Source: Thiomicrorhabdus xiamenensis
GTDB taxonomy: Bacteria; Pseudomonadota; Gammaproteobacteria; Thiomicrospirales; Thiomicrospiraceae
DNA length: 64,000 nt
Direction: 5' to 3'
Assembly: GCF_013282625.1 (NCBI RefSeq)
Contig: NZ_CP054020.1
Location: 1,798,001 to 1,862,000 of the forward strand
Position numbers and translations under genes: made by a program. Below, piece after piece: positions 546-46,454 of the stretch; position 1 is the first letter of the stretch; each line of letters begins with the position of its first letter. The notes under the pieces are model-generated. The model searched no databases and was not told where the DNA came from. It saw only the letters and a list, made by a program, of their open reading frames with translations.

Positions 546-1733
546 CTACTCCTTAAAACATGATTCCGGCAGATCATAAAAGCGTTTTTTTAAAAGCCGG
601 CTTTTATCGTTTAAATTTACCTGAAGCAATTGAGCAACGATTTTTTCGGCAGCCCGCCCCTTCCCATACGGATTTTCCATGGCCCGAAGGCAGGAAAGAA
701 AACCTTCGGAAAGCGCCGTCTGTACCGCCGCCTGAATTTTTTCCCGCTCGCAATCGACTTGAAGTACATTCTCAGCCTGAATTCGACCGGCCTGGCGATC
801 GCCGATATTCACCACCGGCAGACGAAAACTGGCCGCCTCCAAAATACCGCTGGAAGAATTCCCCACCATCGCCGCTGAATGCTGCATCGCAGACATATAG
901 CCTTTCATGCCTAAACTCGATACCAGTTTGAATCTCTGCGGATAACGCTCAATGGCTGAAAGCAATCGCTTCTCGATTTGCTGTCCGCCGGTATCCGCAT
1001 TCGGTAGCGTCGCCAAAACCTGATAAGGTAATTCCTCCAAAGCGGAGACCACTTCGTCAGCCTGCGCTTCCGCTTCCTCATACGAGTCTAAAGTCACCGG
1101 ATGAAAAGTCACCAGTAAAACCGGTTGACTGAAATCCAGCCCGGTCTTTTGCTCCAGTTCCTGCCGACTCCAAGCGGAAAAACGCCTGAAGTTATCCAAC
1201 CCTATCGCCCCGACATTCCACACTCTATCCGGCGACTCTCCCATCTGCAGGACCCTCCGGCGATAGGCTTCATGGGCAACAAAATGCAGAGATGCCATTT
1301 TCGTGACACTGTGTCGTATCGCTTCATCAATCAGGCCAAAGGTCGCTTCCCCACCGTGCAGATGGGCAATAGGAATTTTATGGATCAAAGCACTGTTACA
1401 GGCAGGCAGTAACTCGAACCGGTCCCCCAGAACGACAAGGAGATCCGGCTTAAGCTTTTCAAAGAGCAGAGAAAATTTAACCATACCCGTTCCCATCGCC
1501 CGGCACAGGTCGGTTTCAGAGTCGCCGCTCACTTCCAGATCCACCGTTTCCAGCGGCTCGACCCGATCATCCTCAATCTGCTGCAGAGTGCGTCCCTGAG
1601 AAGGCATGAGGTGCGCACCGGTCGCGATCATAAACGGATCAAAATCCGTCTTCTGCAACTCGAGCCAGAGCGGCTTGAGCAAACCGTAATCAGCCCGGCT
1701 GGTCGTCAACAATGCAATGCGTTTACGACTCAC
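546..1733 (-). CDS. neuC: UDP-GlcNAc-type hydrolysing 2-epimerase NeuC/LegG
   Basis: 395 aa, the normal length for hydrolysing UDP-sugar 2-epimerases. The enzyme releases the nucleotide and inverts C2 to give the free manno-sugar used by NeuB. The protein opens MSRKRIALLTTSRADYGLL, typical of NeuC/LegG, and carries LVVLGDRFELL and HLHGGE near residues 100-128 and the GNSSSGILEA nucleotide-binding block near residue 292. It starts with GTG at 1731-1733, overlapping the neuB stop as GTGA, which implies translational coupling. With LegB, LegC and NeuD upstream, the substrate is more likely a 2,4-diacetamido-trideoxy sugar (LegG role) than plain UDP-GlcNAc; the substrate is inferred. Confidence 0.93.
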   Translation of the reverse strand: MSRKRIALLTTSRADYGLLKPLWLELQKTDFDPFMIATGAHLMPSQGRTLQQIEDDRVEPLETVDLEVSGDSETDLCRAMGTGMVKFSLLFEKLKPDLLVVLGDRFELLPACNSALIHKIPIAHLHGGEATFGLIDEAIRHSVTKMASLHFVAHEAYRRRVLQMGESPDRVWNVGAIGLDNFRRFSAWSRQELEQKTGLDFSQPVLLVTFHPVTLDSYEEAEAQADEVVSALEELPYQVLATLPNADTGGQQIEKRLLSAIERYPQRFKLVSSLGMKGYMSAMQHSAAMVGNSSSGILEAASFRLPVVNIGDRQAGRIQAENVLQVDCEREKIQAAVQTALSEGFLSCLRAMENPYGKGRAAEKIVAQLLQVNLNDKSRLLKKRFYDLPESCFKE

Positions 1734-2731
1734 AATTCAATTCCTTCGCCTGCGTGATAATCTTTTTGCGCAACCGCGTCCATCACCTTGTCCCAAGCCT
1801 GAGCAAATTCACCCGAAGAGGAACGTTTGATATCGCAATTGTCCGCAGAAAACGGTTCGCCGCTAGAAATCGGTCGCTTGGCGACAATGCGCTTACGGAC
1901 AATGGCGATGTTTGCCTGTTCGGATGCAGAAGGCTCCTTTAACCCGGAACCTAAAGCCTGTTCGACATGCCGAATAGCAGTGACCATGGCCTTCAATTCA
2001 TCCGGTTCCAAGCTGGCTTTGTGATCCGGACCGGGCATATGCTTATCCAGCGTAAAGTGTTTTTCGATCACGCGGGCGCCCAGCGCGACTGCAGCAATCG
2101 GCACTTCAATGCCTAAAGAATGATCTGACAGGCCGACCGGTAGATTCAAGGCCTGTTGCAAAGTCTGCATGGCCCGTAAATTAACGTCTGGGAAAGGGGT
2201 TGGATAGGCGGTATTGGCATGTAAAACACTCAATTTATCTGCTGCCAAACCCGCTTCAAGCAAGGTTTTAACGGCAAACGCAACTTCATCCAGGTCACTC
2301 ATGCCGGTCGAAAGAATCGTCGGCTGGTTCAACTTGGCGATTTGCCGCAGATAAGGTACTGAAAGCACTTCGCCTGATGGGATTTTCCAGCGTTTCATTC
2401 CCAAGCGATTCAATAATTCAACGCTTTCGGCATCGAAAGGCGTCGACATGAACTCAATATTTTTTTCAGCACAGTAATCGAGTAATTCACGATGAGCACT
2501 TTCATCAAGCTCCAAACGTTGCAGCATTGAAAACTGGCTCTCTTTGACACCGGTATTTTCGGTTTGATAAGCCGCCTGCTCGGCCGACTCAGTCACCAGA
2601 TTATGGGCTTTGAAGGTCTGGAACTTGACTGCATCCGCACCGGCCTCTACTGCAGCATCGACAAGTGCTTTGGCCGTCTCGAGAGAGCCGTTATGATTGA
2701 CGCCGGCTTCAGCAATAATAAACACGCTCAT
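1730..2731 (-). CDS. neuB: Sialic/legionaminic acid synthase NeuB (LegI)
   Basis: 333 aa. It condenses phosphoenolpyruvate with a manno-configured amino sugar to a nine-carbon nonulosonic acid. The N-terminal TIM barrel begins with FIIAEAGVNHNG and contains GADAVKFQTF, KIPSGE and the HS/EKHFT metal and substrate motifs (GLSDHSLG, VIEKHFTLDK). Residues of about 275-333 form the antifreeze-like SAF domain (IVRKRIVAKRPISSGEPF). The start ATG overlaps the upstream acetyltransferase stop (ATGA) and the end overlaps neuC. The operon context favours legionaminate (LegI) over N-acetylneuraminate; the sequence alone does not decide this. Confidence 0.95.
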   Translation of the reverse strand: MSVFIIAEAGVNHNGSLETAKALVDAAVEAGADAVKFQTFKAHNLVTESAEQAAYQTENTGVKESQFSMLQRLELDESAHRELLDYCAEKNIEFMSTPFDAESVELLNRLGMKRWKIPSGEVLSVPYLRQIAKLNQPTILSTGMSDLDEVAFAVKTLLEAGLAADKLSVLHANTAYPTPFPDVNLRAMQTLQQALNLPVGLSDHSLGIEVPIAAVALGARVIEKHFTLDKHMPGPDHKASLEPDELKAMVTAIRHVEQALGSGLKEPSASEQANIAIVRKRIVAKRPISSGEPFSADNCDIKRSSSGEFAQAWDKVMDAVAQKDYHAGEGIEL

Positions 2732-3357
2732 TTAATCGTTCCTGTATAAGTACCGGGCTCGGTAATATCTTTCAGGACCGTACTGTTGGCACCGATCACC
2801 ACCTTATCGGCCAGAGCAATCCCCTGTTTCAATACCGCTCCGCTGCCGATAAAACAGCTGTTTCCAAGTACGACGCCGCCATTTACTTTGGCTCCCGTGG
2901 CAATATGACAGTGGTCGCCGATAATGACATCATGCTCGATCAATGCCTGAGAATTGATAATGCTATTCGCCCCGACCTTTACATAGGCATTGACCAGTGC
3001 TTGATGCATTACAATGGTTCCCGAGCCTAATTCGGCGGAACTGGAAACATAGGCCGTTGGCGAGATAATCGTCGGCAGAATGGCGCCCAGTCTTTGCAGC
3101 TTTTCGAAAAGGGTCTGTCTTATTTTGGCGGACTTGATCTGGCCTACGGTAATCAGACAATGCGGGAATTGTTCGATCAATGCCGGCAGTTCGGAATCGA
3201 AACCAATAAGCGGATAAGGCGTTTTGCTGTCGGCCGTTGCACCGTCCGCTTCGACAACCCCCTGAACTTTATAAACGCCGTCGGCTTCAATCACATCAAT
3301 GCAACTGCGACAATGCCCCCCGCCGCCGATCAATAAAAGAGGCGTTCTATCACTCAC
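2728..3357 (-). CDS. NeuD/LegH-family sugar N-acetyltransferase
   Basis: 209 aa. The N-terminal half (LLLIGGGGHCRSCIDVIE) is the Rossmann-like nucleotide-sugar domain of the NeuD/PglD family. From about residue 95 a left-handed beta-helix of hexapeptide repeats follows, seen in the spaced I/V/G positions of SAELGSGTIVMHQ, GANSIINSQALIEHDVIIGDH and GNSCFIGSGAVLKQG. The His in EHDVIIGDH fits the catalytic base of this family. It should acetylate the 4-amino group made by the LegC aminotransferase. It overlaps legC by 8 bp and neuB by 4 bp. Assignment to the legionaminate path is by context. Confidence 0.9.
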   Translation of the reverse strand: MSDRTPLLLIGGGGHCRSCIDVIEADGVYKVQGVVEADGATADSKTPYPLIGFDSELPALIEQFPHCLITVGQIKSAKIRQTLFEKLQRLGAILPTIISPTAYVSSSAELGSGTIVMHQALVNAYVKVGANSIINSQALIEHDVIIGDHCHIATGAKVNGGVVLGNSCFIGSGAVLKQGIALADKVVIGANSTVLKDITEPGTYTGTIK

Positions 3358-4501
3358 GACAAAGAACCCCGCTCGGTAAATTCACCACTCTGGAAGCCAG
3401 ACTTTCAGTTATTGGCAAATCTGTTTTAAAAGAGTGACGATAGATATCCAACTGATGCATCGGCGTCCACAATGGGCGCGTCTGGATATCCTGGGCATTG
3501 GAGTCCGCCAAAAACGCCTGTGCTGACTCCGATTGATCGAATGTAATGGCATTCAGCCAGTAATTAGCTTGCGTATTGTCCGGTTCGACAAGAAAACCAA
3601 ATCCTCGACTGTCAGAAAATGCTCCCTGATAAAAGTCTGCCAGCTTGCGCTTTTCCTTCAGGAACTCCGGCAACTGCTGAAGCTGAGCTACCCCCAAAGC
3701 GGCATTCAAGTTCGGCATACGGAGGTTATAGGCGATTTCATCGTGTTCAAACAACCAGGCGTGCGGTTTTTTGGCCGTCGTACTGAGGTGCTTGGCCTCT
3801 TTTGCCAGGCGTTCATTGTCTGTTACCAGCATTCCTCCGCCGCCAGTGGTCAGAATTTTGTTGCCGTTAAAACTGAAAACGCCGATCTCGCCAAAAGTCC
3901 CGGTATGCTTGCCTTTATAAAATGACCCGAGACTCTCCGCCGCATCTTCAATCAAAGCAATGCCGTATTTCTGGCAGAGCATGGCGATAGCATCGATCTC
4001 ACACGCAAAACCCAAGGTATGCATAGGCACACAACCACGGATAGGTTTTCCGGAAGCTTTATGAATTAAATGGCCGTTTTTATGTTCGGTTTGCGTCGCC
4101 AGGAAGTCTTCCAAACCGCTGGCGCTCATCCCTAAGGAAGAACTGTCGACGTCCAGAAACAGCGGTTCGGCGCCAAGCATTGAAATCGCATTGGCGGTAG
4201 CGACAAAACTCAGAGACTGGGTCAAAACCAGATCTCCAGACTGAATACCGGCAACCCGCATCGCCAGCATCAGTCCAAGCGTTCCGTTGACCACCGCCAC
4301 CGCATATTTTGCTCCGGTAAATTGTGCTATTTGCCGCTCGAACTCATCAACATACTTACCAACCGAAGAAACAAAGGTCGAGTCAATGCAGTCGATCAGC
4401 TTGGTTTTTTCCTCGCCCTGAAAGCATGGCGCATGCAGAGGCACAAAACCATCGCCATAGTGGCTGCGCACGGTCTCGATAATCGAGGCAAACTCAGACA
4501 T
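3350..4501 (-). CDS. legC: LegC-type PLP aminotransferase (DegT/DnrJ/EryC1 family)
   Basis: 383 aa PLP-dependent sugar aminotransferase. It would transfer an amino group to the 4-keto sugar made by the neighbouring dehydratase. The fold-type-I signature is visible: ALIEDAAESLG (PLP-binding Asp near 186) and FSFNGNKILTTGGGG, where Lys215 is the expected Schiff-base lysine. The start VPLHAPCFQGEE is that of the LegC subgroup, not ArnB or PseC. It overlaps legB and the acetyltransferase by 8 bp on each side, so the five genes form one translationally coupled unit. Confidence 0.92.
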   Translation of the reverse strand: MSEFASIIETVRSHYGDGFVPLHAPCFQGEEKTKLIDCIDSTFVSSVGKYVDEFERQIAQFTGAKYAVAVVNGTLGLMLAMRVAGIQSGDLVLTQSLSFVATANAISMLGAEPLFLDVDSSSLGMSASGLEDFLATQTEHKNGHLIHKASGKPIRGCVPMHTLGFACEIDAIAMLCQKYGIALIEDAAESLGSFYKGKHTGTFGEIGVFSFNGNKILTTGGGGMLVTDNERLAKEAKHLSTTAKKPHAWLFEHDEIAYNLRMPNLNAALGVAQLQQLPEFLKEKRKLADFYQGAFSDSRGFGFLVEPDNTQANYWLNAITFDQSESAQAFLADSNAQDIQTRPLWTPMHQLDIYRHSFKTDLPITESLASRVVNLPSGVLCRE

Positions 4502-30733: not shown

Positions 30734-30880
30734 TTATGAAAAACCGTTGAGAAAACCTTTCAAACACTCAACGCCTTCACAATCCTTATTAGAACATAAA
30801 ACAGCCATGCTTTCTTGTTCTGAATCAACTTCAATTACCAAATGAAAAGCGGAATTACGCCGTTGCTTTGCATGAATCAC
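30734..30880 (-). CDS. Possible small Cys-containing protein after fnr
   Basis: From GTG at 30878-30880 (overlapping the end of fnr in another frame) the minus strand is open for 48 codons to TAA at 30734; TTG at 30841 and ATG at 30808 are alternative starts (35 or 24 codons). The translation reads as ordinary protein, e.g. AFHLVIEVDSEQESMAVLC, with three cysteines (the last in CEGVECLKG). It ends just before the fnr terminator, so it would share the fnr mRNA. No good ribosome site was seen for any start. It may be a real small protein, a remnant, or chance. Confidence 0.3.
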   Translation of the reverse strand: MIHAKQRRNSAFHLVIEVDSEQESMAVLCSNKDCEGVECLKGFLNGFS

Positions 30881-31601
30881 AGCTTGAGTGCACGCCGGCG
30901 ATATGCATCAGACGCTGCATATCATGAATCATGACTTCTTTCTTCTTCCAGGTAACGATATTTTCTGCATGAAATTTAGCGAGAATGCGAGATACCGTCT
31001 CTGGCGTTAATCCCAAATACACGGCCACATCACGATGCAGAATGCTTAATCTGAATTCATCACTGGCATAACCACGGTTACGGTAACGCTCGGACATATT
31101 CCAAACAAACTGAGCAACCCTTTGATCTGCATTGCGGCGAATCAAGAGTTCCGAATGCATTCGACCATCCAGAACTTCTTTACTGATTGCATTAAGCATC
31201 TGTTGGTTCAGATTCGGAATCGATTCAGTCAGTTCGGTGAATTTTTCAAAAGGAAGGGTACAAACACTGGTGGTATCAAGCGCGACAGCACTATATTGAT
31301 GCTGTTTACTGCCCAAAGCATCGATTCCGAGAACATCGCCCGGCAGGTAGAAGCCGTGTACAATCTCTTCACCGCTATCCGTGAACGAATAAAGCTTTAT
31401 CACTCCGGCTCGTATCGCAAACAGTGCGCTGAACTTATCACTGGCTTCAAAGAGATGCTGACCTTTCTTTAAAGGTGAGCGTCTGTCCACAATATCATCC
31501 AAACGATCTACGTCTTCGCGGCGCAAACCAGTAGGGAAACACACTTTTTGCAAACCGCAGTTTTTGCAGCTGACATTAAAGGCTGACTTAACTTCTTTCA
31601 T
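30855..31601 (-). CDS. fnr: FNR/ANR-type oxygen-sensing transcription regulator
   Basis: 248 aa CRP/FNR family. The [4Fe-4S] ligands are all present: Cys12, Cys15 and Cys21 in the N-terminal CKNCGLQKVC block and Cys114 in TTSVCTLP. The cyclic-nucleotide-like beta-roll covers about 40-150. The helix-turn-helix near 195-215 (DVAVYLGLTPETVSRILAKF) has the Glu-x-x-Ser-Arg contact residues that read TTGAT half sites. It controls genes at low oxygen from the cytoplasm. A sigma-70 promoter lies about 85-110 bp upstream. The short C-terminal tail adds two more cysteines (SCDSC), which is not usual. Confidence 0.95.
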   Translation of the reverse strand: MKEVKSAFNVSCKNCGLQKVCFPTGLRREDVDRLDDIVDRRSPLKKGQHLFEASDKFSALFAIRAGVIKLYSFTDSGEEIVHGFYLPGDVLGIDALGSKQHQYSAVALDTTSVCTLPFEKFTELTESIPNLNQQMLNAISKEVLDGRMHSELLIRRNADQRVAQFVWNMSERYRNRGYASDEFRLSILHRDVAVYLGLTPETVSRILAKFHAENIVTWKKKEVMIHDMQRLMHIAGVHSSCDSCKATA

Positions 31602-32132: not shown

Positions 32133-33332
32133 ATGGCAAAATTTCTGGCAATCGGGAATGCCGTACTGGATACAATTTTTACCGTTGAGCAACACCCTAA
32201 AGAGGATCAGGAGATCCGAGCCATTAGTCGAGAAAACAGAGTCGGCGGCAATGTAAACAACATGCTTTACGTCCTTAACCAACTCGGTCACGAAGCGGCA
32301 ATTTGCTCAACAAGCGCAACCGATACGGAATCAAAACAGCTCATCACAGGGATGCAGGAGCGCGGCATTGACTGCACACATATCCAAAAGTTTATTCAAG
32401 GCAGTACGCCAAACTCCATCGTGACTCTTAACGCCCATAATGGTAGCCGCACAATCGTCCACTATCGCGATCTGCCGGAAGTCAGCTTTGATTTTTTTGC
32501 CAAAATCGAAATCGAAGAGTATGACTGGATTCACTTTGAAGGACGCAATGTCGATAATCTGCAAGGAATGCTCAATATCAGTAAAACCTTCCTTGATAAT
32601 CAACCGATCTCAATGGAAGTAGAAAAACCGCGCGAAAATATTGAATCGCTTTTCCATCAAGCCAACCTGATTATCTTTTCGCATCACTATGCTGGAGCCA
32701 AAGGCTTCAACAACGGTGAAGAGTTGCTGAACGACATTGCCAAGTTGGCTCCAAACAGTCAGCTGGTCTGTACTTGGGGTGCCAAAGGTGTCTGGTATAA
32801 AGCGCTCAACGCGAAAGTCGAACACCTGCCGGCATTGCCGGTCAACCCGGTTGTCGATACCCTTGGCGCCGGGGATACATTTAATGCAGGTTTACTAAGT
32901 AAGCTATCCGAAGGCGCGTCCCTGTCCGAGGCATGCGAATTTGCCAACCATCTGGCCGCGCAGAAAATTCAGAAGATGGGACTGGATGATATCCTAAACG
33001 CCAAACCGGAAAACCAACCGATTGCCAATATTAAACAGCTGAGCAAAGCCAAAGCGACGGTGATCGACTTAAATAACCGCGGCGGCGTTATTCTCATTAA
33101 GCAGGATGAAGAAGTTCGCGCCTACGAAAATAATTGCCCGCATCAGAATGTGCCTCTTAACGAAGCCTACAAAATAGATGTAAACCCTTTTGATCAAACC
33201 ATGAAGTGTTCGGTACACGACGCCTTCTTTAAAATTGACGACGGCGAATGCGTAGAAGGCCCTTGCTGGGGGGAGCATCTAACGCCCGTCAGCATCCGCA
33301 TGGATGATCAAGGGGATATTTACTTGGTATAG
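32133..33332 (+). CDS. PfkB-family sugar kinase fused to a Rieske [2Fe-2S] domain
   Basis: 399 aa. Residues 1-290 form a ribokinase/PfkB kinase: AIGNAVLDTIFTVEQHP start, NRVGGNVNNMLYVLNQLG (sugar-binding Gly pair) and DTLGAGDTFNAG with catalytic Asp248. It resembles ketohexokinase-like members. After a linker, residues of about 305-399 form a Rieske ferredoxin-like domain with the cluster ligands Cys335/His337 (CPH) and Cys359/His362 (CSVH). A sugar kinase joined to a Rieske cluster is not a usual architecture; the cluster may sense redox or transfer electrons. Substrate unknown. The start has AAGGA upstream. It is a single-gene unit with its own terminator. Confidence 0.85.
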   Translation: MAKFLAIGNAVLDTIFTVEQHPKEDQEIRAISRENRVGGNVNNMLYVLNQLGHEAAICSTSATDTESKQLITGMQERGIDCTHIQKFIQGSTPNSIVTLNAHNGSRTIVHYRDLPEVSFDFFAKIEIEEYDWIHFEGRNVDNLQGMLNISKTFLDNQPISMEVEKPRENIESLFHQANLIIFSHHYAGAKGFNNGEELLNDIAKLAPNSQLVCTWGAKGVWYKALNAKVEHLPALPVNPVVDTLGAGDTFNAGLLSKLSEGASLSEACEFANHLAAQKIQKMGLDDILNAKPENQPIANIKQLSKAKATVIDLNNRGGVILIKQDEEVRAYENNCPHQNVPLNEAYKIDVNPFDQTMKCSVHDAFFKIDDGECVEGPCWGEHLTPVSIRMDDQGDIYLV

Positions 33333-33336
33333 AATT

Positions 33337-33368
33337 AAAAAAGGCTCACAATTGTGAGCCTTTTTTTA
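33337..33368. terminator. Bidirectional terminator between the kinase-Rieske gene and rlmB
   Basis: Perfect palindrome AAAAAAGGCTCAC-AATT-GTGAGCCTTTTTT, with T runs on both strands. It serves the plus-strand kinase gene and the minus-strand rlmB. Confidence 0.92.
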
Positions 33369-33380
33369 ACTTGGACATTT

Positions 33381-34112
33381 TTATAAATTTCTCTGTCGGA
33401 AAGCTTCGTAAAGCGTCACCCCTGTGGCAACGGAGACATTCAAACTCTCAACACTCCCCACCATTGGAATGGCCGCCAGATGGTCGCACGCCTCACGCGT
33501 CAGACGTCGCAACCCAGTTCCTTCCGCCCCCATCACAATTCCGATCGCCCCCGAGAAATCCTGCTGATAAATGGTCTTGTCAGTCTCACCCGCCAAACCG
33601 ATCATCCACATACCATTCTGCTGCAACTCTTTCATGCTGCGCACCAGATTCGTGACCACAACCAGCTTAACGGTATCCGCCGCACCACAGGCCACTTTTC
33701 GCACTGTCGCATTAACCCCGACAGACTGGTTTTTAGGAATGATGACAGCATCAACCCCAACAGCGTCAGCGGTGCGCAGAATCGCGCCTAAATTATGCGG
33801 GTCCTGAACTTCGTCCAGAAAAACAAACAGCGGATTAGCCGTTTCTTCGGCGATTTTCAGCAGATCCGCTTCGCTCAAATCTTTCTGCTTTTCAACCATG
33901 GCCATGACACCCTGGTGATTGCCATCGATCTTGGCAAAAACGGATTTATTAACCAACTCGACCTGCAGGTCCAAAGAACGCGCCTGATCCAGTAGTGCCT
34001 GTTGACGTGGATTCAAACGCCCTTTCAGAAAAGAGATGCTGAAAACCGACTGCGGAGCCTGCTTGATAAAGCGTTCAATCGCATGAATGCCGAAAATCAA
34101 CTGTTGCTTCAC
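33381..34112 (-). CDS. rlmB: 23S rRNA (guanosine-2'-O-)-methyltransferase RlmB
   Basis: 243 aa SPOUT methyltransferase. The N-terminal RNA-binding domain begins IFGIHAIERF; the three SpoU motifs are DPHNLGAILRTADAVG (motif 1, about 121-136), IGIVMGAEGTGLRRL (motif 2, about 190) and MVGSVESLNVSVATGVTLYE (motif 3). It methylates G2251 of the 23S rRNA P loop using S-adenosylmethionine. It overlaps the rnr stop by 4 bp; the rnr-rlmB pair is the standard gammaproteobacterial order. Confidence 0.96.
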   Translation of the reverse strand: MKQQLIFGIHAIERFIKQAPQSVFSISFLKGRLNPRQQALLDQARSLDLQVELVNKSVFAKIDGNHQGVMAMVEKQKDLSEADLLKIAEETANPLFVFLDEVQDPHNLGAILRTADAVGVDAVIIPKNQSVGVNATVRKVACGAADTVKLVVVTNLVRSMKELQQNGMWMIGLAGETDKTIYQQDFSGAIGIVMGAEGTGLRRLTREACDHLAAIPMVGSVESLNVSVATGVTLYEAFRQRNL

Positions 34113-36778: not shown

Positions 36779-38203
36779 TTAACCTTCTAATGCAGACAAC
36801 TCAGCCTCCATCCAATCAGTGTCTTGCGGATAAAGTTTATGCGCCAACTCTCTTAATGCCGACTGCAGAGCCTCCTCCAAAACCGGGTGATAGAAAGGCA
36901 TTCGCAACAGATCCATAACCGTCAACTTCTGCTCAATCATCCACGCCAGAAGATGCGCCATATGTTCACCTTCAAACAAAAACAACTCTGCACCCAACAA
37001 CTGTTTGCTTTCCTTATCCGCAAACAGCGAAATCGCACCTTTATCTTGCCCAATAACAATCGCTCGGCCGTTAGCACAGTTCAATTTAAAGGTTACCACC
37101 TCGATTTTATCCGCATCGAGTTCCGTGTAACGCTGGCCAACCAGCCCGATTTGCGGATCGGTAAAAGCGACCCCTAAACTGGTTTTACGCGCATAGGCCG
37201 AAATCTGCGGATAGGAGACGGCATTAAGCACTGCCATACGCCCTTCATCTCCCGCTTCATGCAGAATCTGACGGTAACCGTTCACATCTCCGGCAATAAA
37301 AATCGGCTTGTCCTCGATCTGCGAAGTATGCAGGTTAAAGTTCGGCATACCACGCCCATCCAACTCGACACCCGCAGCCGCCAGATTCAAGTTGTCGATA
37401 TTCGGACGACGGCCAAGCGACGCGAAAACCGCATCGACATACACTTTTTCCTCGCCGATCTGTACCTCGACTTCCTCCGGATTATCCGGGTTCAGACGCA
37501 AATTCGCGGCAACCCCCAAATGCACCGGAAACTCTTTGGAAAACTCGGCAACCGCCTCTTCTACCACCTCAGGTACACTGAGTCCACCCAAGGTATTGAG
37601 CATCTCGACACCGACCACCTCAATACCTAAACGAGCCAGAGCCTGCCCTAACTCCAATCCGATAACACCAAGACCAATTACTGCAATACGCTTTGGAAGC
37701 GTTTCGAGCTCAAAAATCTCGTCACTGGTCATAAGCTTATCACCCAGCTCTTTCCACGGAGTAGGCACAACCGGACGAGAACCGTTAGCGATAATAATGC
37801 GCTCCGCTTCAATCACTTCGTCATTCACTTTGAGCTGATTCGGAGCCACAAATTCTGCATAACCTTCAATCAGCTGCCCAGGGGCAAGCGTATCCGTCGA
37901 GCCGGATTTCACTCCACCGGTAAAACGATCACGCAAAGCACGAACTCTTTGCATGACCTTAACCAGATCGACTTCCTGCTGTTCGGCATTCTCAATGCCG
38001 ATTTCCGCCATATGATGACGCTGGTGATAATGATTCGCCGTATGAATCAGAGCTTTCGAAGGCATACAACCAACGCGGGCACAGGTCGTTCCGTAAGGCC
38101 CGCCCTGAATCATGACAAAATCTTCGTTGCGCTTCTTTAAATAAGAGAGTGCCGTCAAACCGGAAGTTCCCGCGCCGATAATCGCGTATTTCACCTTTCG
38201 CAT
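36779..38203 (-). CDS. Dihydrolipoyl-dehydrogenase-type FAD disulfide oxidoreductase
   Basis: 474 aa from ATG 38201-38203 (MRKVKYAIIGAGTSG), with GGAG upstream. FAD-binding GAGTSG, redox-active cysteine pair in TTCARVGCMPSKALIH (CxxxxC), NAD-binding GLGVIGLELGQALARLG near 175-190, second FAD motif PIFIAGDVNG near 312 and the C-terminal dimer motif with catalytic His (FYHPVLEEAL). No lipoyl or 2-oxoacid dehydrogenase genes are adjacent, so whether it acts in such a complex, as a mercuric-reductase-like enzyme or on another disulfide is open. It is a single-gene unit closed by a terminator. Confidence 0.88.
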   Translation of the reverse strand: MRKVKYAIIGAGTSGLTALSYLKKRNEDFVMIQGGPYGTTCARVGCMPSKALIHTANHYHQRHHMAEIGIENAEQQEVDLVKVMQRVRALRDRFTGGVKSGSTDTLAPGQLIEGYAEFVAPNQLKVNDEVIEAERIIIANGSRPVVPTPWKELGDKLMTSDEIFELETLPKRIAVIGLGVIGLELGQALARLGIEVVGVEMLNTLGGLSVPEVVEEAVAEFSKEFPVHLGVAANLRLNPDNPEEVEVQIGEEKVYVDAVFASLGRRPNIDNLNLAAAGVELDGRGMPNFNLHTSQIEDKPIFIAGDVNGYRQILHEAGDEGRMAVLNAVSYPQISAYARKTSLGVAFTDPQIGLVGQRYTELDADKIEVVTFKLNCANGRAIVIGQDKGAISLFADKESKQLLGAELFLFEGEHMAHLLAWMIEQKLTVMDLLRMPFYHPVLEEALQSALRELAHKLYPQDTDWMEAELSALEG

Positions 38204-38324
38204 AATTTTCTCCAATACACACAAGCAAACAGTACTCTCTTATATTAGTTAAAATCCATATTTAAAAGTTGAACCAGCACAAGTATTCATCTGAAATCAA
38301 AAAAACAGCGCAAAGCAATTTTGA

Positions 38325-41849: not shown

Positions 41850-42821
41850 ATGAAAAGACTTGATCAAGTATTGGCTGCGGACAAAGTTCCAGCGGAATTA
41901 GAACTGGTTATCAATGATGTAATTGTTGCGTGTAAAGATATCGCATACAAGCTACGTCAAGGTGAACTGGCTGGTATTCTAGGCGCAACCGAAGATGAAA
42001 ACGTTCAAGGTGAAACACAAAAGAAACTAGACGTTATCTCTAACGATCTGCTTAAAGATATGCTTGTTTCCAACCCTTTCGTTCGCGGAATCGGTTCTGA
42101 AGAAGAAGACTACACTGTTGCAGGTTCTGCAGAAGGTAAATACCTGGTAACTTTCGATCCACTAGACGGTTCTTCAAACATCGACGTAAACCTTTCTGTT
42201 GGTACCATCTTCTCTATTCTTGAAGCACAAGACGATCGCTCAGGCGACCAGCAAGAAGTTTTCCTACAGAACGGTCGCAAGCAGGTTGCTGCCGGTTACG
42301 TTCTATACGGACCTTCTGCACTGCTTGTCATGACAACCGGTAACGGTGTTAACATCTTCACTCTAGATACGACTGTTGGTGAGTTCGTTCTTACCAAGTC
42401 AGGCATCCAGATCCCTGAAGACACTGCAGAATTCGCAATCAACATGTCTAACCAGCGTTTCTGGGAACCAGAAATGAAGCAGTACATCGATGACTGCCTT
42501 AAAGGTGAAGAAGGTCCTCTAGGCAAGCGCTACAACATGCGTTGGGTTGCTTCCATGGTTGCTGAAGTACACCGTATCCTTATGCGCGGCGGTATCTTCA
42601 TGTACCCTTGGGATAACCGTGATCCGTCTAAAGCCGGTAAACTTCGTCTAATGTACGAAGGAAACCCTATGTCTATGATCGTTGAACAGGCCGGTGGTGC
42701 ATCTTCAACAGGTCGTATGGACATCATGGACGTTCAGCCTGAAGGTATTCATGACCGCGTTCCAGTTGTTCTTGGTTCTAAGAACGAAGTGGCTAAGGTT
42801 GTTGGCTACCACAACAAATAA
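41850..42821 (+). CDS. fbp: Class I fructose-1,6-bisphosphatase
   Basis: 323 aa. Metal and substrate motifs GSEEED near residue 82 and FDPLDGSSNIDVN near 105-117, and the C-terminal MYEGNPMSMIVEQAGG are those of class I FBPase. It removes the 1-phosphate of fructose-1,6-bisphosphate in gluconeogenesis and in the Calvin cycle. Codon choice is strongly biased (many CTT/CTA and GGT codons), suggesting high expression, in line with an autotrophic host. Single gene behind its own promoter and before its own terminator. Confidence 0.97.
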   Translation: MKRLDQVLAADKVPAELELVINDVIVACKDIAYKLRQGELAGILGATEDENVQGETQKKLDVISNDLLKDMLVSNPFVRGIGSEEEDYTVAGSAEGKYLVTFDPLDGSSNIDVNLSVGTIFSILEAQDDRSGDQQEVFLQNGRKQVAAGYVLYGPSALLVMTTGNGVNIFTLDTTVGEFVLTKSGIQIPEDTAEFAINMSNQRFWEPEMKQYIDDCLKGEEGPLGKRYNMRWVASMVAEVHRILMRGGIFMYPWDNRDPSKAGKLRLMYEGNPMSMIVEQAGGASSTGRMDIMDVQPEGIHDRVPVVLGSKNEVAKVVGYHNK

Positions 42822-42844
42822 TCGAATTTTCACTTGATTCGACT

Positions 42845-42869
42845 AACACCCGCTCAATGCGGGTGTTTT
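42845..42869 (+). terminator. Terminator after fbp
   Basis: AACACCCGC-TCAAT-GCGGGTGTT hairpin (42845-42867) followed by a short T run, 24 bp after the fbp stop. Confidence 0.75.
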
Positions 42870-42902
42870 ACGTTAAAACACTTAATTTAAGGAAGTTACA
42901 CT

Positions 42903-43436
42903 ATGGGTTATGCAGCAGTTCCTGCCGGTAAAGACGTCCCTAACGACGTTAACGTAATCATTGAAATCCCGGCTTTCGCTCCACCGATCAAATACGAAGT
43001 GGACAAAGATACCGATCTTGTCTGGGTTGACCGTCTTCAAGGCTCCACTCTTTCCTACCCGGCTAACTACGGTTACATCAACGACACCCTTTCCGATGAC
43101 GGTGATCCGGTTGACGTTCTGGTTGTCACACCGCACCCGCTTATGATCGGTTCAGTTATCCGCTGTCGCCCGATCGGTATTTTCAAAATGACCGATGACG
43201 GTGGTGAAGATGCCAAAGTAGTCGCAGTACCAGTCGACAAACTTTCTCCGATCTACTCAAACATCGAAAAAGTCGAAGATATTCCGCTTCTTAAGGAGCA
43301 GATCGAACACTTCTTCAGCCACTATAAAGACCTGGAACCAGGAAAATGGGTTAAGGTTGACGGTTGGGGCGATGTTGAAGCTGCCCGCCAGGAAATCCTG
43401 AACGGAGTAGAAACTTACAACGCGAAAAAAGCGTAA
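42903..43436 (+). CDS. ppa: Soluble inorganic pyrophosphatase (family I)
   Basis: 177 aa hexameric type. Key motifs are [16 protein letters not shown], the signature DGDPVDVLV (metal-binding aspartates near residue 66) and [17 protein letters not shown]. It hydrolyses pyrophosphate and pulls biosynthetic reactions forward. The start follows AAGGAAG. It lies between fbp and ppc with terminators on both sides, so it has its own transcript or is read through from fbp. Codon bias again suggests high expression. Confidence 0.97.
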
Positions 43437-43457
43437 GTTTCCCGTTTTAGATTGCAG

Positions 43458-43490
43458 AAAATGCCGGAATCATTCCGGCATTTTTTATTT
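43458..43490 (+). terminator. Terminator after ppa
   Basis: AATGCCGGAAT-C-ATTCCGGCATT (43460-43482) with a T run to 43490; 22 bp past the ppa stop. Confidence 0.88.
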
Positions 43491-43621
43491 TAATACTGCC
43501 TCACCGCCCGACACATTTCTTCCATTTTTACCCCCGCTCAACGACGGCACTCCCCCTTCTCCGTTAATAAACCGATTTTCAAGGCATTTGATTGTGCATC
43601 AAGGCAATCATAAAAAAATTC

Positions 43622-43630
43622 TGCTATAAT
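43622..43630 (+). promoter_or_regulatory. Extended -10 promoter of ppc
   Basis: TGCTATAAT: a perfect TATAAT with the TG extension, 38 bp before the ppc ATG. No good -35 is seen at 17 bp, which extended -10 promoters can tolerate. Confidence 0.6.
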
Positions 43631-43667
43631 ATTCGCTAATTTTGTTTTGAATAAATTGAGAAGACAT

Positions 43668-46454
43668 ATGGCAGAAAATCGTGACAAACAGCTACGAGCG
43701 CGAGTGAAGCTTCTTGGGAATATTCTTGGTAAAGTCATTGAGAATCAAGTCGGCAAGGAAACTTACAACGCGGTAGAAAAATTACGCAAAGGCTACATCC
43801 AGCTTCAAAAAGAAGACGATCCAAATCTTCGTCAAGAACTCACGACATTCATCCAATCTCAAACCTCAGAACAGCTCAATCTTATTATTCGTGCCTTCAA
43901 TGTGTATTTCAGTTTGGTTAACCTGGCTGAAGAAGAGCATCAATACCATGAACGCCAAAGCCAGCTTAGATCCGACGGTCCTCTTTGGCCCGGCTCGGTA
44001 CTGAACACCATTGAAGAATTCAAGGAACAAGGATTAAGCGGCAGCCAAGTACAAACACTGCTTAGCAAACTGAACTACATCCCGGTTTTCACTGCGCACC
44101 CGACAGAATCGAAACGTCGCTCCGTGATGGACAACCTGCGCCGCATCTTCCTTGATATCAGCGCACTTAACGAAGCGGAAAACTACAACAACGGCTACGT
44201 AATTGACACACTACATCAACAGCTTGAATCCCAGATTCAGGTACTTTGGCAGACCGACGAAGTTCGCCGCCAAAAGCCGACCGTAGAAGACGAAATCCGT
44301 AACGGTATCTACTATTTCCGTCAATCGCTGTTTGATGCGGTTCCGAACGTTTATCGTTATATGGACCGCGCTCTGGCCAAGCATTACCCGGACGACAAAA
44401 TTGAAACGCCTAACTTCCTGACCTTCGGCTCATGGATCGGTGGTGACCGCGACGGTAACCCGTTCGTCACCCACGACACGACCATTCACGCCCTGCTGCT
44501 ACAAAGCCGCGCGGTGATGTACGAATACCAGAAGCGCGTTTTTGATCTGAGCTCCAAACTGACTCATTCAAAACACCTGTGCCATATCTCGCAAGAGGTT
44601 GTTAACCGCGCCGCTATCGTCGATACGGACCTGATCAAATCGGTTTTCAATAGCCGTCCGGAACGTTTCAGAGACGAACCTTACCGTCGTTTCCTATATT
44701 TGATTCACGGCAAACTGAAACACAATCTGGAACATATCGAAGCGCAGCTTAACGGCGAACCTTTCGACAAGAGTCCTTTCGCTTATGACTCCGAAGACGA
44801 CTTCCTGAACGACCTGCAGATCATCTTTGATTCACTGTGCGGTCACGGCGATAAAAATGTTGCCGAAGCCGAATTGCTTGACCTTATCCGTCTGGTAAAA
44901 ACCTTCGGTTTCTATCTGATGCGCCTGGATATCCGTCAGGAATCTACGGTACATACCGAAGCGGTTGCCGATCTGCTGCAACACCTGAATATCGACTATA
45001 ACGCCCTTAGCGAACAAGAACGAATTGACGTTCTGGCAAACCATGTCGCTTCGGCAACCGTAATCGATACCCAGCACCTTGATCTGCAGGACATGACCCG
45101 AGAAGTACTCGAAGTCTTCAATGTCATGCGCCAAATGCGCCAGGAAATCAGTCCGAAAGCGTTTAACAACTACGTTATCTCCATGACACATGAAGCAAGT
45201 CATATCATGGAAGTCTTGTTCCTGGCTCACCAGGCCGGACTTGCCGGTTATAACGCAGGTCAGGCCTATTGCGATATCCGCATCAGCCCGCTATTCGAGA
45301 CCATTGTTGACCTTGAGCACATTGTTCCGGTCACTAAAGCGCTGTTCGATAACAACACCTATAAAGAGCTGCTGGCGGCATCCGGCAACCAGCAGGAAAT
45401 CATGCTTGGTTATTCGGATTCGGCCAAAGACGGCGGAAACCTGTCTTCAGCTTGGAGCCTATACCAGGCACAGCAACAAATTATGAAACTGGCCGACGCC
45501 AACGGTATCGATTGCCGTCTATTCCACGGACGAGGCGGAACTCTGGCTCGTGGGGGCGGCCCGACGCACCACGCAATCCTGTCACAGCCGACAGGAACCG
45601 TACGCGGTTCGATTAAATTCACCGAACAAGGTGAAGTTCTATCGTACAAATACAGCAATGCTGAAACCGCTATGTACGAACTATCGCTGGGCGTAACGGG
45701 ATTGATGAAAGCCAGTCAGAACCTGGTTAAACCGGTCACTGCGGACAACAGCAAGTATCTGGATATCATGCAGCAGCTAGCTAAAGATGGGGAAGCCTGC
45801 TACCGTGAACTGACCGATCATACCGACGGTTTCTTCACGTTCTTCTACGAGGCTACTCCGGTTACCGAAATCGGTCTTCTGAATATCGGTTCCCGCCCGT
45901 CACACCGTAAAAAAGGCAATCTGTCGAAATCTTCGATTCGCGCCATTCCTTGGATTTTCGGATGGGCTCAGGCTCGTCTGACCTTCCCGGCCTGGCAGGG
46001 AACCGGGTTTGCTATCGACCAATGGATCAACCAGCACGGCGAAGAAGAGCTCAAAGCCATGTATAAAGAGTGGCCTTTCTTCCGCGCTCAAATGAGCAAT
46101 ATCCAAATGGCTCTGTCAAAAACCAACCTGGTGATCGGTAAGGAATACAGCAAACTCGGCAGCGATCAGGAAATTGCGCAAAATATCTACAACCAGATCG
46201 CCACAGAGCATACACGTGCCTGTAAACGTATTCTGGAGATCAGCGAAAACGAATACCTGATGGCGGACAACCCGACCATCGCGCTTTCGTTGAAACGCCG
46301 CAATCCATATCTGGTGCCTCTGAACAATATCCAGATCGAGATTTTGCGTCGTTATAAAGACGAATCGCTAAGCGATGAAGATCGCAATATCTGGCTGACG
46401 CCGCTATTAAACAGCATCAATGCTATTGCGGCCGGTATGCGCAACACCGGTTAA
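43668..46454 (+). CDS. ppc: Phosphoenolpyruvate carboxylase
   Basis: 928 aa from ATG 43668 (MAENRDKQLRARVKLLGN), with GAGAAG upstream; a TTG seven codons earlier is less likely. Catalytic His in VFTAHPTESKRRS (near 145), Lys/Arg motif SDSAKDGGNLSSAW and the glycine loop FHGRGGTLARGGGPTH. It carboxylates PEP to oxaloacetate to refill the TCA cycle, an important anaplerotic route in autotrophs. A tetramer of normal bacterial length. Own promoter and strong terminator. Confidence 0.98.
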   Translation: MAENRDKQLRARVKLLGNILGKVIENQVGKETYNAVEKLRKGYIQLQKEDDPNLRQELTTFIQSQTSEQLNLIIRAFNVYFSLVNLAEEEHQYHERQSQLRSDGPLWPGSVLNTIEEFKEQGLSGSQVQTLLSKLNYIPVFTAHPTESKRRSVMDNLRRIFLDISALNEAENYNNGYVIDTLHQQLESQIQVLWQTDEVRRQKPTVEDEIRNGIYYFRQSLFDAVPNVYRYMDRALAKHYPDDKIETPNFLTFGSWIGGDRDGNPFVTHDTTIHALLLQSRAVMYEYQKRVFDLSSKLTHSKHLCHISQEVVNRAAIVDTDLIKSVFNSRPERFRDEPYRRFLYLIHGKLKHNLEHIEAQLNGEPFDKSPFAYDSEDDFLNDLQIIFDSLCGHGDKNVAEAELLDLIRLVKTFGFYLMRLDIRQESTVHTEAVADLLQHLNIDYNALSEQERIDVLANHVASATVIDTQHLDLQDMTREVLEVFNVMRQMRQEISPKAFNNYVISMTHEASHIMEVLFLAHQAGLAGYNAGQAYCDIRISPLFETIVDLEHIVPVTKALFDNNTYKELLAASGNQQEIMLGYSDSAKDGGNLSSAWSLYQAQQQIMKLADANGIDCRLFHGRGGTLARGGGPTHHAILSQPTGTVRGSIKFTEQGEVLSYKYSNAETAMYELSLGVTGLMKASQNLVKPVTADNSKYLDIMQQLAKDGEACYRELTDHTDGFFTFFYEATPVTEIGLLNIGSRPSHRKKGNLSKSSIRAIPWIFGWAQARLTFPAWQGTGFAIDQWINQHGEEELKAMYKEWPFFRAQMSNIQMALSKTNLVIGKEYSKLGSDQEIAQNIYNQIATEHTRACKRILEISENEYLMADNPTIALSLKRRNPYLVPLNNIQIEILRRYKDESLSDEDRNIWLTPLLNSINAIAAGMRNTG

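Follow-up and report, generated by a model that had tools for sequence, protein, structure and literature searches.

A sugar kinase of the ketohexokinase (KHK) group is joined in a single reading frame to a Rieske iron-sulfur domain in the window analysed here, a stretch of 64,000 nucleotides from the single-contig 2.59 Mb genome of Thiomicrorhabdus xiamenensis, a bacterium with genes for CO2 fixation. The fusion recurs throughout the sampled genomes of the family, and in other Gammaproteobacteria homologous kinase and Rieske genes often lie side by side. Each half is of a known kind; what looks new is that the two are combined, that the combination recurs and that it is tied to RuBisCO-bearing genomes. 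Searches of open-access literature turned up no account of a Rieske domain in a PfkB or KHK protein.

The fusion gene and its conservation

The gene for the fusion protein, here called P0001, occupies positions 32133 to 33332 on the + strand, as do all of its parts given below, and runs from an ATG at 32133 to a TAG stop ending at 33332, encoding 399 aa. Residues 1 to 286 (32133-32990) form a PfkB kinase domain (Pfam PF00294, E 5.3e-36) and residues 295 to 379 (33015-33269) a Rieske [2Fe-2S] domain (PF00355, E 4.1e-12), both matches lying above the curated cut-offs of Pfam. An earlier note on this DNA had given the frame and its coordinates, the GAGD loop with Asp248 and the ligand pairs Cys335/His337 and Cys359/His362, all of which were confirmed on the sequence. 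Its statement that the frame holds no internal start was mistaken, as an ATG at codon 282 (32976) and a GTG at codon 310 (33060) lie in frame near the junction. The ATG is not conserved, because just two of the 23 sequences in alignment A1, those of the window and of its 98% relative, have Met at codon 282, and an internal start giving a separate Rieske protein was rejected on this ground, although both codons are present.

All 62 sampled genomes of the window's family, spread over seven genera, carry the fusion protein, and in 60 of them, single-contig and draft assemblies alike, it is uninterrupted over both domains, which bears out the earlier description of one protein. The version in G388 (L188:1444-2547) ends after 367 aa, a little past the second ligand pair, and lacks the extra cysteines described below; the one in G402 comes from a draft contig and is broken within the kinase half. 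Both halves are also encoded in 23 named public records, of which one (L022) is interrupted, and by its named relatives, at 58-98% identity, the window's genome falls in the Thiomicrorhabdus/Thiomicrospira/Hydrogenovibrio group. Across the 23 family members that were aligned, neither the four Rieske ligands nor the two extra cysteines vary. Since 62 of 62 family genomes carry the fusion, chance or assembly error is excluded, and with it the sequencing error joining two genes that the earlier note had named as its refutation; the uninterrupted frames and the 23 public records leave an artefact of sequencing or assembly with a negligible probability.

The kinase half

Judged on solved structures only, the kinase half lies nearer to KHK than to other PfkB enzymes. 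Its ten best sequence matches in the PDB (phmmer) are all named ketohexokinase, human and mouse by title, with E-values from 2.5e-51 to 8.4e-48, and the next group, a different sugar kinase, follows at E 5.9e-12. The predicted model of P0001 (mean pLDDT 89.4, pTM 0.76) places it likewise: the 21 best Foldseek matches are all ketohexokinase, with TM-scores by target of 0.87-0.93 and identities of 34-37%, and sulfofructose kinase comes next at 22%.

Human KHK, as described in an excerpt of PMC2651755, contacts all five fructose hydroxyls through Asp15, Gly41, Asn42, Asn45 and Asp258. On alignment, Asp15 corresponds to Asp13 of P0001 (32169-32171), Gly41, Asn42 and Asn45 to Gly39, Asn40 and Asn43 (32247-32261), and Asp258 to Asp248, which from the alignment and the same excerpt is taken as the catalytic residue and stands within the GAGD motif formed by residues 245 to 248 (32865-32876). 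These five positions are kept in 122, 122, 122, 121 and 122 of 123 homologues, the departures amounting to one gap per column and one Thr at position 43. P0001 combines the PfkB/ribokinase fold, GAGD loop and catalytic Asp with all five fructose contacts, and by sequence and predicted fold its kinase half belongs to the ketohexokinase group. The earlier wording, a sugar or nucleoside kinase, can be sharpened accordingly. Ribokinase and nucleoside kinase were rejected as assignments; KHK is closer among solved structures, and the NCBIfam matches of P0001 to ribokinase and nucleoside kinase fall far below their cut-offs.

The Rieske half

Two predicted ligand pairs, Cys335-Pro-His337 (33135-33143) and Cys359-x-x-His362 (33207-33218), give the Rieske half the CxH and CxxH motifs of its class. 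Comparison of homologues reveals a further conserved pair of cysteines, Cys373-x4-Cys378 (33249-33266), within the motif GxCxxGPC. All 59 Rieske sequences that are fused to a kinase or adjacent to one show both the CxH...CxxH pattern and GxCxxGPC, and GxCxxGPC is present in 84 of 86 when stand-alone genes are counted; because the stand-alone relatives share it, the extra pair is a trait of this Rieske group and not of the fusion. No PDB sequence match of the Rieske half was found up to E 0.1. A model of residues 288-399 (pLDDT 85.7) shows the Rieske fold, and all 50 of the PDB matches listed for it are Rieske proteins or Rieske-containing enzymes by title.

By Pfam the window's genome contains one other Rieske gene, which is of the bc1 type (L187, beside a cytochrome b gene; names by reading). 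The Rieske domain and its ligands are shared with P0001, but the cluster loops of the bc1-type protein read CTHLGC and CPCHGS, with two further cysteines, against CPHQNV and CSVHDA in P0001. The second cysteines of bc1/b6f-type cluster loops form a disulfide, and P0001 has no second cysteine in either loop.

Small stand-alone Rieske proteins with GxCxxGPC and no evident partner are widespread, an example being L025:5983-6312 of Marinomonas ushuaiensis. Rieske genes of the same group were found at 42 loci that are not beside a KHK gene, in many contexts, and in a poorly resolved tree the kinase-linked and other Rieske genes are mixed, with 21 changes between the two states. At one of these loci (L190:905-2236, G493) the Rieske gene starts 9 bases behind an adenosine-kinase-like PfkB gene, and dksA-like and gluQ-like genes follow (names by reading); this is the only one of the 42 with a second type of PfkB gene beside the Rieske gene, as searched by motif within four genes.

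Kinase and Rieske as separate genes

The distribution of the kinase was followed in 369 sampled Gammaproteobacteria spread over families, using a cut-off of E 8.9e-39. A KHK-like kinase was present in 102 of these genomes, leaving 267 others, and outside the class the best match reached at most 80.7 bits among 398 sampled genomes of the phylum. Gene neighbourhoods were compared at 100 kinase loci, one from each of these genomes except the window's and G192, with as much as 6 kb of flanking sequence in each direction. At seven loci kinase and Rieske domain are fused: two belong to the window's family, three to family f158, and one each to G146 and G055. A further 31 have an adjacent Rieske gene, 60 have no Rieske neighbour within the stretch and two end too soon to tell.

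The 31 adjacent cases, 29 with complete Rieske genes and two cut by a contig end, are spread over 21 family codes, and these homologous stand-alone genes agree with the earlier suggestion that the Rieske domain was joined by gene fusion. The kinase comes first in 28 of the 29 pairs that are complete, and the Rieske gene in the remaining one. Among the 28, 19 overlap (14 of them by four bases) and nine lie 0-21 bases apart, distances that take the start codon nearest the kinase stop as the Rieske start, a choice favouring short values. No column of the kinase alignment separates the 38 coupled kinases from the 60 uncoupled ones.

On a quick tree of 109 kinases, in which 40 of 106 inner branches are open and L133 and L143 are counted as uncoupled, the coupled state needs 19 changes and the fused state three, of which the starred branches force at least two; these counts cannot separate gain of the fusion from its loss.

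Co-occurrence, carbon fixation and sucrose

Genomes were searched for the Rieske group with a profile of 24 sequences, half of them kinase-linked and half not, some of which came from the sampled genomes. Comparing 80 random genomes of the 102 with the kinase and 80 random genomes of the 267 others, the group was found at E 1e-10 in 47 and 28, respectively (odds ratio 2.6, Fisher p 0.004, ignoring kinship), and at E 1e-20 in 46 and 25. A less even comparison, with Rieske relatives in 55 of 102 genomes against 45 of 267, had given a stronger enrichment than this test, which replaces it. Where both partners exist they are fused in eight genomes, adjacent in 24 and apart in 15, so that they stand together in 32 of 47. 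At E 1e-10 the group is missing from 33 of the 80 kinase genomes, and there the kinase must work without it. The kinase and the Rieske group are only moderately tied by presence and mostly lie side by side where both exist.

The association with RuBisCO is more pronounced. At E 1e-20, RuBisCO (PF00016) was found in 94 of the 102 genomes with the kinase and in 88 of the other 267, an odds ratio of 24 that ignores kinship, and at E 1e-100 in 90 of 102 against 79 of 267; within the window's family it occurs in 59 of 62 genomes. Sucrose-phosphate synthase scores above its cut-off in 60 of 102 kinase genomes against 30 of 267 others, again ignoring kinship, and within RuBisCO-bearing genomes in 56 of 94 with the kinase against 25 of 88 others. 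This enzyme is present in 27 of the 62 family genomes, all of which carry the fusion, and in the window's genome a separate PfkB kinase gene (L183) lies beside it; for both reasons the fusion is not the kinase of a sucrose operon. L183 shares the PfkB family with P0001 but is a separate gene without a Rieske domain, and its best NCBIfam match, fructokinase, is below the cut-off. By reading, the third PfkB match of this genome resembles ThiD. A general role in salvaging fructose from sucrose would fit the association but is not favoured, given the 27 of 62 and L183; some link to sucrose may nonetheless exist. The link of the kinase to carbon fixation is stronger than its link to sucrose.

Gene neighbourhood

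In the window, the fusion gene lies between a divergent gene for an Fnr-type regulator (30855-31601, - strand) and a converging SpoU methylase gene (33381-34112, - strand). With what we take to be the Fnr box consensus, a scan upstream of 21 members returned no excess of Fnr-like boxes (12 of 21 against 51% of shuffles, at two mismatches or fewer), so that control by the divergent neighbour is not supported. A near-perfect inverted repeat with runs of A and T lies at about 33337-33367, between the fusion and the converging gene; the terminator scan behind the fusion gene reported none. Further off, the window holds genes for fructose-1,6-bisphosphatase, inorganic pyrophosphatase and PEP carboxylase in a row (41850-46454), 8.5 kb downstream of the fusion, and at 546-4501, near flagellar genes, genes for a UDP-GlcNAc 2-epimerase, NeuB and a DegT-type aminotransferase of the nonulosonic acid type.

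A gene for a flavoprotein of the dihydrolipoyl dehydrogenase type (36779-38224, - strand; NCBIfam NF004939, 585 bits) lies 3.4 kb downstream of the fusion; it is read from the opposite strand, and two further genes intervene. Members of its BLAST cluster turn up at 16 loci, of which 15 belong to the window's family.

Across the 100 kinase loci, one BLAST cluster of large proteins is encoded directly upstream of the kinase and on the same strand in 17, with 12 of the 17 proteins measuring 1322-1881 aa, and in one more locus it stands two places upstream. According to Pfam, three of three such proteins contain cyclic-nucleotide domains (two stretches each) and rhodanese, and two of three an FGE-sulfatase domain; the examples L110:6878-11932, L125:6947-12103 and L142:6893-12370 also appear by reading to contain coiled coil. 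In four loci without a kinase gene, a protein of this cyclic-nucleotide/rhodanese type, recognised by BLAST clustering and by reading of its start, is encoded directly before the Rieske gene. Among kinases that have no Rieske neighbour, a recurring order is small zinc-ribbon membrane protein, kinase and pentapeptide-repeat protein (names by reading), seen with the kinase near position 6000 in L070, L072, L079, L080, L098, L108 and L136. A ThiO-like oxidase follows the kinase in eight loci, none of which has a Rieske neighbour.

Proposed role and rival explanations

We tentatively favour, at somewhat less than an even chance, a ketohexokinase whose activity or partner follows the state of a [2Fe-2S] cluster. 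The kinase half would phosphorylate a free ketose with ATP, by homology at C1; sequence suggests the conversion of fructose into fructose 1-phosphate, or a closely related reaction, as the candidate. The Rieske half would bind its cluster through Cys335, His337, Cys359 and His362 and take or give one electron, and the redox state or intactness of the cluster could then set the activity of the kinase, or its partner. Phosphorylation of free ketose would in this way follow the supply of electrons in a CO2-fixing cell, and in bacteria with the two-gene form the same pair would presumably act as a complex. The broader proposition, that in autotrophic Gammaproteobacteria an on-board Rieske cluster serves as a redox valve for the phosphorylation of ketoses, the parts being encoded by neighbouring genes in many lineages and fused repeatedly, is possible but doubtful.

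Redox control is favoured by the adjacency of the genes in many families, the repeated change to or from fusion, the conservation across the whole sampled family and the invariant ligands. The same idea in the earlier note is weakened by the 60 of 100 kinase loci that have no Rieske neighbour, by the 33 of 80 kinase genomes that do not contain the group and by the failure of any kinase residue to separate coupled from uncoupled kinases; it remains the favoured mechanism. Rieske relatives also occur in many other contexts, four of them directly behind a cyclic-nucleotide/rhodanese-type protein, which argues in the same direction, as do the moderate enrichment of the group in kinase genomes, the mixing of kinase-linked and other Rieske genes in their tree and the lack of an excess of Fnr-like boxes. 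A further argument against redox control comes from plants, where, according to an excerpt of PMC4036507, autotrophic growth can do without the redox activity of a PfkB-type protein and of its partner, a thioredoxin. The results for and against together give redox control the chance stated above and leave the rest to three other explanations.

The Rieske half could instead be an electron carrier on board, a ferredoxin for another enzyme whose fusion merely keeps two activities together and leaves the kinase unregulated. The modelled domain resembles the Rieske ferredoxins of oxygenases (3gce, TM-score 0.77 by query and 0.82 by target), the Rieske group is common in genomes without the kinase (28 of 80) and the flavoprotein encoded at 36779-38224 (- strand) is a possible electron donor. 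Yet no oxidoreductase is found among the nameable recurring neighbours directly beside the kinase-Rieske pair, and a carrier would gain little from its tie to the kinase, though the fusion has been gained or lost on no fewer than two occasions. We regard this explanation as somewhat unlikely. A role in signalling, in which kinase and Rieske protein form the effector end of a module, the large cyclic-nucleotide/rhodanese/FGE-sulfatase protein is its input and the kinase may be a ligand-binding switch, would account for the 17 of 100 loci where that protein stands directly upstream on the same strand and for the four loci where one of its type precedes the Rieske gene without a kinase. At the 25 loci of the window's family, however, no such large protein is encoded within six genes of the fusion, and the catalytic Asp is kept in 122 of 123 homologues; both facts sit poorly with a signalling role, which must be judged improbable.

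The two halves might also have no functional link at all, adjacent genes having occasionally been fused by chance and the fusion tolerated. Close or overlapping genes fuse easily, and many genomes have just one member of the pair or hold both at separate places. Such indifference is hard to reconcile with a fusion found in 62 of 62 genomes over seven genera, with ligands invariant in 23 of 23 aligned members, and with partners that stand together in 32 of the 47 genomes possessing both and adjoin each other in 21 family codes; the explanation is accordingly an unlikely one.

Relation to known systems

Human and mouse KHK are the best match of P0001 in sequence and fold over residues 3 to 287 and share with it the fructose contacts and the GAGD motif. 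They are about 36% identical to P0001 and contain no Rieske domain, whereas P0001 is bacterial and belongs to a group in which such a domain is fused or adjoining. The Rieske ferredoxins of ring-hydroxylating oxygenases (BphA3, 3gce) and NirD-like subunits share the fold and the CxH...CxxH ligands of the other half, as fold matches at 13-21% identity, but the GxCxxGPC pair is an addition of the P0001 group; NirD and HcaC are weak NCBIfam matches of P0001 below their cut-offs, and neither an oxygenase nor a nitrite reductase gene was noticed next to the fusion.

The pairing of a PfkB-type protein with a redox partner has a parallel in plastid FLN1 and thioredoxin z, as an excerpt of PMC4036507 describes. 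Unlike P0001, that pair uses thiol chemistry, is encoded by two genes and is part of the plastid RNA polymerase.

Significance

A sugar kinase bearing an iron-sulfur domain for electron transfer would tie carbon flow to electron flow in a new manner. We know of no sugar kinase that is switched by an iron-sulfur cluster, and this would be the first if the proposal is true. That the kinase tracks RuBisCO across Gammaproteobacteria suggests that the carbon metabolism of autotrophs contains a step not yet assigned, as regards both the source of the free ketose and the reason for its phosphorylation. Autotrophs that carry the two parts as a single fused gene make the coupling of kinase and Rieske domain directly testable, and in these bacteria the phosphorylation of sugar may be tied to the redox state of the cell.
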